From Sphingomonas sp. LY29 (lineage in GTDB: Bacteria; Pseudomonadota; Alphaproteobacteria; Sphingomonadales; Sphingomonadaceae), in NCBI RefSeq assembly GCF_035593985.1, contig NZ_CP141587.1, positions 248,001-312,000 of the forward strand: DNA of 64,000 nucleotides, written 5' to 3'. How positions within the stretch are numbered: position 1 is the first letter of the stretch; each line of letters opens with the position of its first letter. This document shows positions 53,978-56,698 of the stretch, one piece after another. The position numbers were made by a program, and so were the translations under genes. Under the pieces are notes generated by a model, which made no database searches, was not told where the DNA came from, and saw only the letters and a program-made list of their open reading frames with translations.

Positions 53978-54733
53978 TTAAGCCTCGAGCGCGGCTTCGA
54001 CCGGAGGCTCGGCCATCGCGCCAATGTCTTCGCCGCGGGCCTGGGCGTTGCCCGACTTGCCCTGACTCGCCGCGCTTGCAACCGCTTCCGAATAGAGGCG
54101 GATCGCACGGCTGGCGTCGTCGTTGCCCGGAACCGGGAAGGCGATGCCCTGCGGATTCGAGTTCGAATCCAGGATCGCGATGACAGGAATGCCAAGGACG
54201 TTGGCTTCCTTGATCGCCAGCTCTTCCTTGTTGGTGTCGATTACGAACATCACGTCGGGCAGGCCGCCCATGTCGCGAATGCCGCCGAGGCTGAGCTCGA
54301 GCTTGTCGCGCTCGCGCGTCAGCTGAAGGACTTCCTTCTTGGTCAGGCCGGCCGTGTCGCCCGTCAGCTGCTCTTCAAGGCTCTTAAAGCGCTTGATCGA
54401 GTTGGAAATCGTCTTCCAGTTGGTCAGCATGCCGCCGAGCCAGCGATGGTTGACGAAGTGCTGGCCCGATTGGCGAGCAGCTTCCGCCACCGCGTCCTGC
54501 GCCTGGCGCTTGGTGCCGACGAACAGGACCTTGCCGCCACGGGCGACGGTCTGCTGAACGAAGTCGAGCGCGCGGGCGAAAAGCGGAACGCTCTGCGAAA
54601 GATCGATAATGTGAACGCCGTTGCGATCGCCGAAGATGTACGGCTTCATCCGCGGGTTCCAGCGGTGGGTCTGGTGGCCAAAATGGGCGCCAGCTTCGAG
54701 CAATTGCTGCATCGTGACGACGGGAGTCGCCAT
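53978..54733 (-). CDS. rpsB: 30S ribosomal protein S2
   Basis: This 251-residue ribosomal protein has [20 protein letters not shown], the [16 protein letters not shown] segment, [27 protein letters not shown] and [20 protein letters not shown] low-complexity Ala/Glu tail ends it. It is the promoter-proximal gene of the rpsB-tsf-pyrH-frr-uppS-cdsA-dxr-rseP-bamA-skp-fabZ cluster. Confidence 0.97.
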
Positions 54734-54884
54734 AGGATAGTCTCCTTCCGGTTAAGCCTCGGCGGGTCCGCGTAACCGATCGCAAGATCGGCACCGGTAT
54801 GTTGAACCCGCCTGTGGGATGGCCGGGCCTCTAACCGAGCCGTCCCGCAATTTCAAGCTCTTCACTCGCACCCGCATCGCAAAA

Positions 54885-54899
54885 GAACATAGTGGGAAC
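54885..54899 (+). promoter_or_regulatory. LexA-type box 1 (GAAC-N7-GAAC)
   Basis: GAAC, seven bases, GAAC is the direct-repeat operator known for LexA of alphaproteobacteria. This copy lies upstream of a TTGACG -35-like hexamer (54908-54913). Confidence 0.7.
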
Positions 54900-54907
54900 G
54901 AATTCGC

Positions 54908-54936
54908 TTGACGCGGCTGGAACGATACGAGAACAT
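54908..54936 (+). promoter_or_regulatory. Candidate promoter of the 73-residue membrane protein gene
   Basis: TTGACG at 54908-54913 and a weak GAACAT at 54931-54936 are 17 bases apart. LexA-type box 2 covers the spacer end and the -10 position. The -10 is a poor match, so the assignment rests mainly on the -35 and the operator arrangement. Confidence 0.45.
54920..54934 (+). promoter_or_regulatory. LexA-type box 2 (GAAC-N7-GAAC)
   Basis: A second exact GAAC-N7-GAAC. It would overlap RNA polymerase contacts if the promoter at 54908 is used, a typical repressor position. Confidence 0.75.
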
Positions 54937-54978
54937 CGTTCAGAACGAAGCGATTGCAATTCGATACGGAACGAAATC

Positions 54979-54993
54979 GTTCCCGGACTGTTC
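54979..54993 (+). promoter_or_regulatory. LexA-type box 3 (GTTC-N7-GTTC)
   Basis: The complementary form GTTC-N7-GTTC, 26 bases before the start codon of the small membrane protein. Its first GTTC is also half of a 7-bp palindrome GGAACGA-AA-TCGTTCC (54968-54983). Confidence 0.7.
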
Positions 54994-55018
54994 AGCGCAA
55001 AACGAAGGAAACGGACTC

Positions 55019-55240
55019 ATGCTCGCCATTGTCGCCACCCTCGCTCTCCTCACCTTCGCCGCCGGCGTCCTGTTCGAACTTGTTCGCCACGACTGCGGCA
55101 AGATCCTCGCAGCGCTCCAGGGACGTTCGTGGCTGGCGGAACGGCCGATGTCGGCACGCCCGGTGACGGTGCGCTACAGCCCGCGCTACCCGGCTACTCG
55201 GCCGATGCGGGCGCAGGCTGAGTGGCGCGCCGCCGCTTGA
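55019..55240 (+). CDS. Small single-pass membrane protein under probable LexA control
   Basis: This 73-residue protein begins with a hydrophobic helix (MLAIVATLALLTFAAGVLFEL, residues 1-21 in two parts: MLAIVATLALL and TFAAGVLFEL), then a basic C-terminal tail with RHDCGKILAALQGR and [17 protein letters not shown] do not recognise the family. The ATG at 55019 has AAGGAAACGG upstream; a TTG at 54908 in frame is rejected because it falls in the probable promoter. Three LexA-type boxes upstream suggest SOS induction. Small LexA-controlled membrane proteins in other bacteria block cell division (for example SidA in Caulobacter), so that is a hypothesis here. Its 3' end overlaps pssA by 47 bp. Confidence 0.65.
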   Translation: MLAIVATLALLTFAAGVLFELVRHDCGKILAALQGRSWLAERPMSARPVTVRYSPRYPATRPMRAQAEWRAAA

Positions 55241-55970
55241 CCCGACCGTAGCTGGCGATGCTCACCGGCAGCATTGCCAGATAGAGCGCCGAAACGGCTA
55301 GCAATGTCACCCAGGGAACGGTGATCAGCGCAGCACCAAACAGCGCGACCCCCGCAAGTGCAAACAACCGCCATCCCCTGCGGATTCGGATCGAACTCCA
55401 CGTAAAGGTCGGGACGCTCGAAATCATCAAGGCGGCGATGAACAGCGTCCACACCATCATCAGGCGCCAGTCCTGGAACATCTCGTTCCCGGTAATCAGC
55501 CACAGATACATCGGCGTAAAGGCGAGGCCCGCCCCGACCGGCGCGGGGACGCCGGTATTGTAGCCCGCCGACTTGTGCGGCTGATCGTCGGCATCGATGC
55601 GCGCGTTGAAACGCGCTAGGCGCAAGGCGCAGCACACTGCCAAAGCCAAGGCTGCGACCCACCCGAATTTTGGGGCATCGCGTAACGACCACAGGAAAAT
55701 GACCAGCGCCGGCGCGGTCCCGAACGCGATATTGTCGCACAGGCTGTCAAGTTCGGCGCCGAACTTGCTCTGAGCCTTCAATAAACGCGCGATGCGGCCG
55801 TCCATACCGTCGAGAACGCCGGCGAAGACGATCGCCCCCAGCGCCTTGTCCCATTCGCCGCCAATGGCGAAGCGTACACCCGTCAGGCCGAAACAGAGGA
55901 CCAAGGCGGTGACCGCATTCGGCGCAAGCGCCCGCAAGGGAATTCCACGAACTGCACGTACTTCGCTCAC
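55194..55970 (-). CDS. pssA: CDP-diacylglycerol-serine O-phosphatidyltransferase
   Basis: This 258-residue membrane enzyme makes phosphatidylserine from CDP-DAG and serine. It has the CDP-alcohol phosphotransferase signature [24 protein letters not shown] (about residues 54-80) and about seven membrane segments, with a basic tail. It overlaps psd by ATGA, giving a two-step phosphatidylethanolamine operon; cdsA at 50.1 kb makes the substrate. Confidence 0.94.
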
Positions 55971-56698
55971 TGGCTGCGCCCCACGCGTTGCGGGTCGACC
56001 CCGATTTCACCCAACACCGTCTCTCCGGCGATCGAACGCTGGCCGAGCATGACCTGCGCGCCGGTGCCGGCGGGCAGATAGACATCGACGCGGCTGCCGA
56101 AGCGGATCAAGCCGACCCGCTCGCCCGCCTCGACCCGATCGCCTTCTTTTACGAATGAGATGATCCGGCGCGCGATCAAGCCCGCGATCTGCGTAAATCC
56201 GACCGCCACGCCATCCTCGCGCTCGACCAAAAAATGTTGCCGTTCGTTGTCTTCGCTGGCCTTGTCGAGATCGGCGTTGAGGAACTTGCCTGGCACGTAG
56301 GCGATGCGACGCACCGTCCCCGCGATCGGCGTCCGATTGATGTGCACGTCGAACACGCTCATGAAAATTGACACGCGCGTGAACTCGCCGCTCAAACCGC
56401 CATCGCCCGCCAACTCGGGGGGTGTGGGCACCCGCGAAATCGTCGTCACCAGGCCATCCGCGGGCGCCACGATCAGCTTGGGATCGACCGGGGTCGTCCG
56501 GATCGGATCGCGGAAGAACGCCGCAACCCACATCGACACCATCACCATCACCCATCCGAAAACATTGGGCAGCAAGGCAAAAGCGACCAGCGTGATGAAC
56601 GCGGCGATGACGGTGAACTTGCGGCCTTCGGGATGGACCGAGGGAAAGCGCCACTTGACCGTGGTCAGATGGCTATCGGGCTTTTCGATCGATGACAT
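55967..56698 (-). CDS. psd: Phosphatidylserine decarboxylase proenzyme
   Basis: This 243-residue pyruvoyl enzyme converts phosphatidylserine to phosphatidylethanolamine. It has two N-terminal hydrophobic segments, [28 protein letters not shown], and the self-cleavage site in [12 protein letters not shown], where the Gly-Ser bond splits to form the pyruvoyl group. It is the short alphaproteobacterial form. It is first of the psd-pssA pair and is divergent from icd. Confidence 0.94.

Follow-up and report, generated by a model that had tools for sequence, protein, structure and literature searches.

A putative LexA-controlled small membrane protein gene beside rpsB in Sphingomonas and its relatives

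SidA of Caulobacter crescentus is a small inner-membrane protein of 29 residues that is under LexA control and acts on FtsW (PMC4211646; PMC12700426). The same bacterium has DidA, a small membrane division inhibitor that is induced by DNA damage through DriD in an SOS-independent manner (PMC4211646). In Bacillus subtilis, the SOS-induced YneA has a single membrane span that binds FtsW, and models of low confidence put SosA and SidA at FtsW too (PMC13396833). SosA of Staphylococcus has 77 residues and one N-terminal span with a conserved stretch just after it; its C-terminus is extracellular, its extreme end is a degradation signal, the protein is a CtpA substrate, and relatives encode it at the same chromosomal position with low sequence identity (PMC6851548). 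In Sphingopyxis granuli, induction of SOS genes under anoxia was described, and neither rpsB nor filament occurs in the main text of that report (PMC6472365). No sphingomonad SOS division inhibitor appeared in the titles and abstracts of the open-access literature on sphingomonad LexA or SOS, and the open-access papers searched included none on the arrest of division in sphingomonads after DNA damage.

Like SidA, the product of the gene described here is a small membrane protein encoded behind putative LexA operators in an alphaproteobacterium. Unlike SidA, which was compared by description as a 29-residue protein binding FtsW, it has about 74 residues, a long basic tail and often an EcfG-type promoter. 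With SosA, also compared by its published description, it shares the size, the single N-terminal span, the conserved stretch after the span, an extreme C-terminus that is important for turnover in SosA and probably so here, and a fixed place at low identity; in contrast to SosA, its C-terminus is predicted from charge to be cytoplasmic and it belongs to a different phylum. It resembles YneA as a single-span protein under SOS-type control, but no LysM domain was found here. It is a small membrane protein as DidA is, whereas LexA-type operators stand at the small gene, unlike the SOS-independent DidA.

The small gene and its locus

The window, a stretch of 64,000 nucleotides, comes from Sphingomonas sp. 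LY29, whose genome consists of one contig of 2,463,131 bases. The features of the locus are as follows (positions are those of the window):

53978..54733, - strand, rpsB (ribosomal protein S2), divergent neighbour of the small gene (translation, conserved synteny)
54885..54899, + strand, LexA box 1, GAAC-N7-GAAC (motif search)
54908..54913, + strand, -35 element TTGACG of promoter P1 (read from the sequence)
54920..54934, + strand, LexA box 2, the core box, GAAC-N7-GAAC, between the P1 -35 and -10
54931..54936, + strand, weak -10-like GAACAT of P1, sharing the second half of box 2, 17 nt after TTGACG
54968..54992, + strand, promoter P2, of the sigma-EcfG-type form GGAAC-N17-GTT (homologous promoters, nepR promoters)
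54979..54993, - strand, LexA box 3, reading GTTC-N7-GTTC on the + strand (motif search)
54990-54992, + strand, -10 GTT of P2, within the second half of box 3
55004..55009, + strand, Shine-Dalgarno-like GAAGGA (read from the sequence)
55019..55240, + strand, small membrane protein gene, 73 codons plus stop (list of open reading frames, homologues)
55194..55970, - strand, convergent pssA-like gene for a CDP-alcohol phosphatidyltransferase (translation, synteny)

The convergent gene, which we take to be pssA-like from its translation, overlaps the 3' end of the small gene. The only RNA gene found in the window was one tRNA-Ser, and a listed RNA element at the locus was rejected since no Rfam element, antisense RNA included, was matched in 54000-56000.

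The frame of the small gene was found to be kept in homologues. Four species pairs were compared by codon position, two further pairs of unequal length being left out. Three of the four had 12-32 changes at position 3 compared to 0-4 at position 2, and the fourth had 17, 12 and 30 changes at positions 1, 2 and 3, respectively. Because homologues keep the frame and changes concentrate at codon position 3, the stretch 55019-55240 is, by these comparisons, a real, unannotated gene.

LexA-type operators upstream of the small gene

The three boxes of the preliminary description, GAAC-N7-GAAC at 54885 and 54920 and GTTC-N7-GTTC at 54979, were all exact and lay inside 109 bp. A single box means little, because the motif is without overall enrichment in this genome: 60 exact boxes were found compared to 66 in a reversed-letter control, and the majority of the other sites among the 60 were inside genes or distant from gene starts. 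The window contained 4 exact boxes compared to about 2 expected, 3 of the 4 upstream of the small gene. When the 60 sites of the genome were placed at random, three boxes starting within 94 bp occurred in 4 of 20,000 placements, and chance clustering was rejected on this result.

Homologues of the protein were found in 22 of 61 genomes by single-sequence search and in 64 of 71 genus genomes by profile search. In a second set the profile matched 17 of 196 genomes; the three used came from other genera of the family, and the weakest match (G118, from another family) was left out. After removal of G026, G035 and G086, which had less than 220 nt upstream, the 67 homologues gave a set of 64 promoters. 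The box was present in forward orientation in all 64, and the next commonest half-site spacing from N0 to N25 was found in 16. The reversed-letter control gave 1 of 64 and shuffles gave 0.47 on average, and no box was found in 121 control stretches downstream of the start. One exact box was found in 40 promoters, two in 11 and three in 13, and a second box approximately 35 bp upstream of the core box recurred in relatives. Multivalent repression, as proposed earlier, is plausible in this genome, but three boxes are the arrangement of only 13 of the 64 promoters.

With a broader profile, matches were obtained in 102 of 397 family genomes and in 32 of 96 genera. Ten of the 102 were of the genus and two were already included; 60 of the other 90 were examined, mostly best first. 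A box within 220 nt was found in 56 of these 60 homologues, the exceptions being G474, G450, G191 and G461 (the last with only 20 nt upstream). Among the 58 with the full 220 nt, 55 had a box, compared to 2 in the reversed-letter control. Conservation of the boxes upstream of orthologues, on which the preliminary description had staked its reading, was accordingly found both in the genus-centred set and outside the genus. The only box was reversed in five outside-genus homologues (G387, G498, G543, G514 and G129). At the five loci L242, L244, L247, L267 and L282 this sole reversed box lay at -76 to -78 and rpsB was absent from the stretch examined; these homologues could represent a branch of their own within the family.

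The same box was found at the regulator gene itself and at repair genes. In this genome, lexA lies at C1:61748-62383 with a box directly upstream of its start, and boxes also precede uvrA, dinB and imuA. Further boxed gene starts belonged to a putative DNA modification/repair radical SAM gene, rmuC, a PA0069-type radical SAM gene and yaaA. A box was counted as just upstream when its centre lay 2-48 nt from the first start codon. The matches of lexA, dinB and the two radical SAM genes were above NCBI cut-offs, and those of uvrA (a fragment here), imuA, rmuC and yaaA were below them. Across the genus, the search for lexA succeeded in 68 of 71 genomes; 30 loci were fetched, the start was recognised by motif in 26, and all 26 readable lexA promoters contained the box. 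The motif reported for LexA in Caulobacter is GTTCN7GTTC (PMC12700426). The earlier claim of a LexA-controlled small single-span membrane protein gained strong support from the operator conservation, the lexA promoter and the boxed repair genes, and the small gene is almost certainly under LexA control as far as these motif data can tell.

Three further observations concern LexA in these genomes. In 8 of the 26 readable lexA promoters (L183, L187, L193, L194, L196, L199, L203 and L204), three GTTC half-sites follow one another at 11-bp steps, forming two overlapping boxes. An 89-residue acidic open reading frame with no NCBIfam match (L036, G000:C1:338442) starts right at a GAAC-N7-GAAC and is a possible LexA target. 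One more LexA-like match (L054, G000:C1:2229130-2229486) was weaker and fell under the cut-off; it is probably another S24-type peptidase gene.

The preliminary description had also placed box 2 over a probable promoter. TTGACG-N17-GAACAT does span box 2, but its -10 is weak, and scanning 54700-55300 for the sigma-70 consensus gave no site. When the full P1 pattern was searched genome-wide with 2 mismatches allowed, 32 matches were found compared to 26 in the control, and only this promoter was exact. In 61 of 67 homologous promoters, TTGAC precedes the core box by 6-7 nt, which puts the operator at the expected binding site of RNA polymerase, where it would overlie P1.

The predicted membrane protein

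The 73-residue protein has a hydrophobic N-terminus; the motif KILAALQG follows the span, the tail is basic and the C-terminus reads RAAA. A total of 127 homologues was collected, from which three shorter than 55 residues were dropped (G083, G086 and G090, the G086 match having an internal stop). In the remaining 124 the median length was 74 residues, and hydrophobicity gave one span, with the most hydrophobic segment starting near residue 3. A K-x-x-A-A-L-x-G motif follows the span on the tail side within the genus. The net charge before the span was 0 in 118 of 124 proteins, and the median charge of the tail was +6. Because of this difference, the positive-inside rule makes an N-out/C-in topology most likely.

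The C-terminal Ala-Ala was the most constant part of the protein, a feature that the preliminary description had not noted, nor had it noted the overlap of box 3 with the probable promoter P2. It was found in 115 of the 124 homologues, VA in 6 and RAAA in 76, compared to AA at the end of 4 of 55 long open reading frames of the window; some bias is expected in this count, as the profile includes the C-terminus and the filters for open reading frames favour a terminal alanine. This conservation suggests a degradation tag.

Among the 8000 candidates scored in a protein search, the named relatives were annotated as hypothetical protein (Sphingomicrobium nitratireducens, S. astaxanthinifaciens and Parasphingopyxis lamellibrachiae), and a scan of named genomes gave one relative, Sphingomonas cremea G124. 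No Pfam or PHROG family was matched in 36 members, and the sole listed match to a known protein family was rejected as noise, with an E value of 0.15 and 11 bits compared to a cut-off of 100. The LysM domain by which the YneA/ChiZ family is recognised gave no Pfam match in the protein or in the 36 members. The SulA domain gave none in the 36 members, and the protein has a membrane span, which sets it apart from the SulA family of cytosolic FtsZ inhibitors. Family searches found no homology to SidA, YneA, SosA or SulA. The single N-terminal span, the basic tail and the lack of a recognised family noted in the preliminary description were all confirmed.

By analogy with the described inhibitors, the chances that the small protein is a division brake appear about equal either way, and its earlier designation as the sphingomonad equivalent of SidA or YneA is the best functional guess. 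The protein might instead do another job under LexA control, such as anchoring DNA or a repair enzyme to the membrane by its Arg-rich tail or, after damage, modulating a protease or an enzyme of the envelope. The strongly basic tail and the conserved K-x-x-A-A-L-x-G on its side of the span would suit such a role. Pfam and PHROG searches, however, found no domain or partner, and a small, fast-evolving, single-span plan under LexA is the plan of the known division inhibitors, so this reading is unlikely, although it is the strongest of the alternatives to a division brake. The product is best read as a fast-evolving, probably short-lived, single-pass SOS membrane effector that most likely acts like SidA or SosA.

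The probable promoter P2 and the place beside rpsB

The form GGAAC-N17-GTT was found in 44 of the 64 homologous promoters and the N18 form in 5, compared to 3 or fewer for any other spacing from N8 to N27 and 0.15 on average in shuffles. Restricted to -70 to -25, N17 was found in 42 of 67 and N18 in 4. Neither form was present in 15 of the 64 promoters (about a third of the promoters are without P2), and outside the genus the N17 form was found in 15 of 58. The spacer contains a TC 14-15 nt after the first G, kept at 90 and 88% of 42 sites. The gene nepR, which encodes the anti-sigma factor of EcfG, was identified in 67 of the 71 genomes of the genus, and GGAAC-N17-GTT was present in all 31 nepR upstream stretches examined.

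For the general stress sigma factor EcfG, the promoter motif was reported as GGAAC-N17-20-GTT in Sphingomonas melonis Fr1 (PMC6599016) and as GGAAC-N16-CGTT in Sphingopyxis granuli TFA (PMC7083833). P2 fits the former, and it fits the latter except for the base before GTT. LexA and SOS do not occur in the main texts of these two papers on the EcfG regulon (PMC6599016; PMC7083833). By its motif, P2 is likely to be under EcfG control in this genus. Another site could instead have kept GGAAC-N17-GTT conserved, in which case LexA control would still stand; the conserved TC of the spacer is not a rule in nepR promoters, P2 is missing from part of the genus, and the related pattern GGAAC-N12-22-CGTTT shows no genome-wide excess (36 matches compared to 41 in the control). 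In contrast, the sharp spacing of 17 is the same as in all 31 nepR promoters and the published sphingomonad motifs fit, which leaves about one chance in five for a P2 that is not an EcfG promoter.

The GTT of P2 forms part of box 3 here and likewise in G024, G036, G068 and G072, and in G011, G017, G020, G021, G028, G031 and G070 P2 is closely followed by a forward box. With boxes on or just past P2 in two layouts, LexA can probably block P2 too. Strong operators would suit a harmful protein, and TisB is a LexA-controlled, membrane-active peptide that lowers the membrane potential. A product of this kind, small, hydrophobic and LexA-controlled like TisB as generally described, would slow growth after damage with no specific block of the divisome. 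This reading leaves the 50-residue basic tail and the invariant C-terminus unexplained, and Rfam found no antisense RNA in 54000-56000 (an unlisted one is possible); we consider it improbable and prefer that of a division brake.

The reach of the arrangement was examined by locating rpsB in 108 sampled genomes of the order. The stretch divergent from rpsB was then taken from two groups, 30 of the 47 family genomes that the profile had not matched and 30 of the 48 that belong to other families. Beside rpsB, a box lay within 450 nt in 24 of 30 and 0 of 30 genomes, respectively, which indicates that the arrangement is common in the family and that the protein diverges far faster than the operator and the place. 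In 22 of the 30 family genomes the box accompanies a small open reading frame with a hydrophobic N-terminus and ending in AA or VA, a count biased by a filter that demanded a terminal alanine; when the first ten genomes were inspected with no such filter, 6 of 7 boxed reading frames ended in AA. At least one of these reading frames, that in G105, plainly resembles profile members, so that the profile misses some true relatives. By place and layout, the boxed reading frames adjacent to rpsB are probably homologous. No exact box was found beside rpsB in 6 of the 30 family genomes. At L319 (G141) and L329 (G135) a reading frame built in the same way, with EAA or RAAA at its end, stands beside rpsB without an exact box, and the operator may have been lost or have drifted there.

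In seven genus genomes, the same seven that carry a forward box just downstream of P2, no rpsB was found within 1.5 kb upstream, and yet each has three boxes. This speaks for the small gene as the target of the operators; boxes serving rpsB were rejected on this ground. That the boxes control rpsB or another regulator, with the small gene a bystander, has the shared divergent region in its favour but is hardly credible given these seven genomes, the forward box with TTGAC facing the small gene in all 64 promoters, and the same box at lexA and the classic repair genes.

The proposed action of the small gene as a division brake can be set out as follows. Sequence establishes the gene, the conserved operators that it shares with lexA, the conserved P2 motif and the conserved C-terminus; binding by LexA and EcfG, topology, proteolysis and inhibition of division are inferred. 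By occupying the core box, which lies between -35 and -10, LexA would keep P1 off, and in this genome two further boxes would add to its grip, one of them on P2. After DNA damage, RecA-driven cleavage of LexA would open P1, and in this genus EcfG probably starts transcription at P2. The protein would insert as a single span, most likely N-out/C-in, and would probably restrain septal wall synthesis via the FtsW/FtsI/FtsN complex, as reported for SidA. ClpXP and proteases of the Tsp/CtpA type have preferences for particular C-termini, and the C-terminal Ala-Ala might be read by ClpXP if it is cytoplasmic or by a Tsp/CtpA-type protease if it is periplasmic. Proteolysis of the small protein would then let division resume after repair. 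Taken whole, this explanation, a LexA-controlled small membrane effector that restrains division and is then degraded, stands at about an even chance, and the interpretation in the preliminary description is partly supported.

These findings make the small gene a good candidate for the damage-induced division brake of the sphingomonads, and they define a locus, with its operator and its protein, that is open to tests in laboratory strains. More tentatively, and somewhat short of an even chance, the protein could be a family-wide, unannotated checkpoint protein whose evolution is so rapid that its only fixed elements are the place beside rpsB, the LexA operator, the span and an Ala-Ala degron, and which one genus has wired to both SOS and EcfG, through LexA operators placed on the stress promoter in two layouts, so that damage licenses the response to stress. 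The arrangement suggests that damage and general stress meet at one gene. It also shows that the operator and the order of genes can lead to an SOS effector whose protein sequence has diverged too far to be matched.
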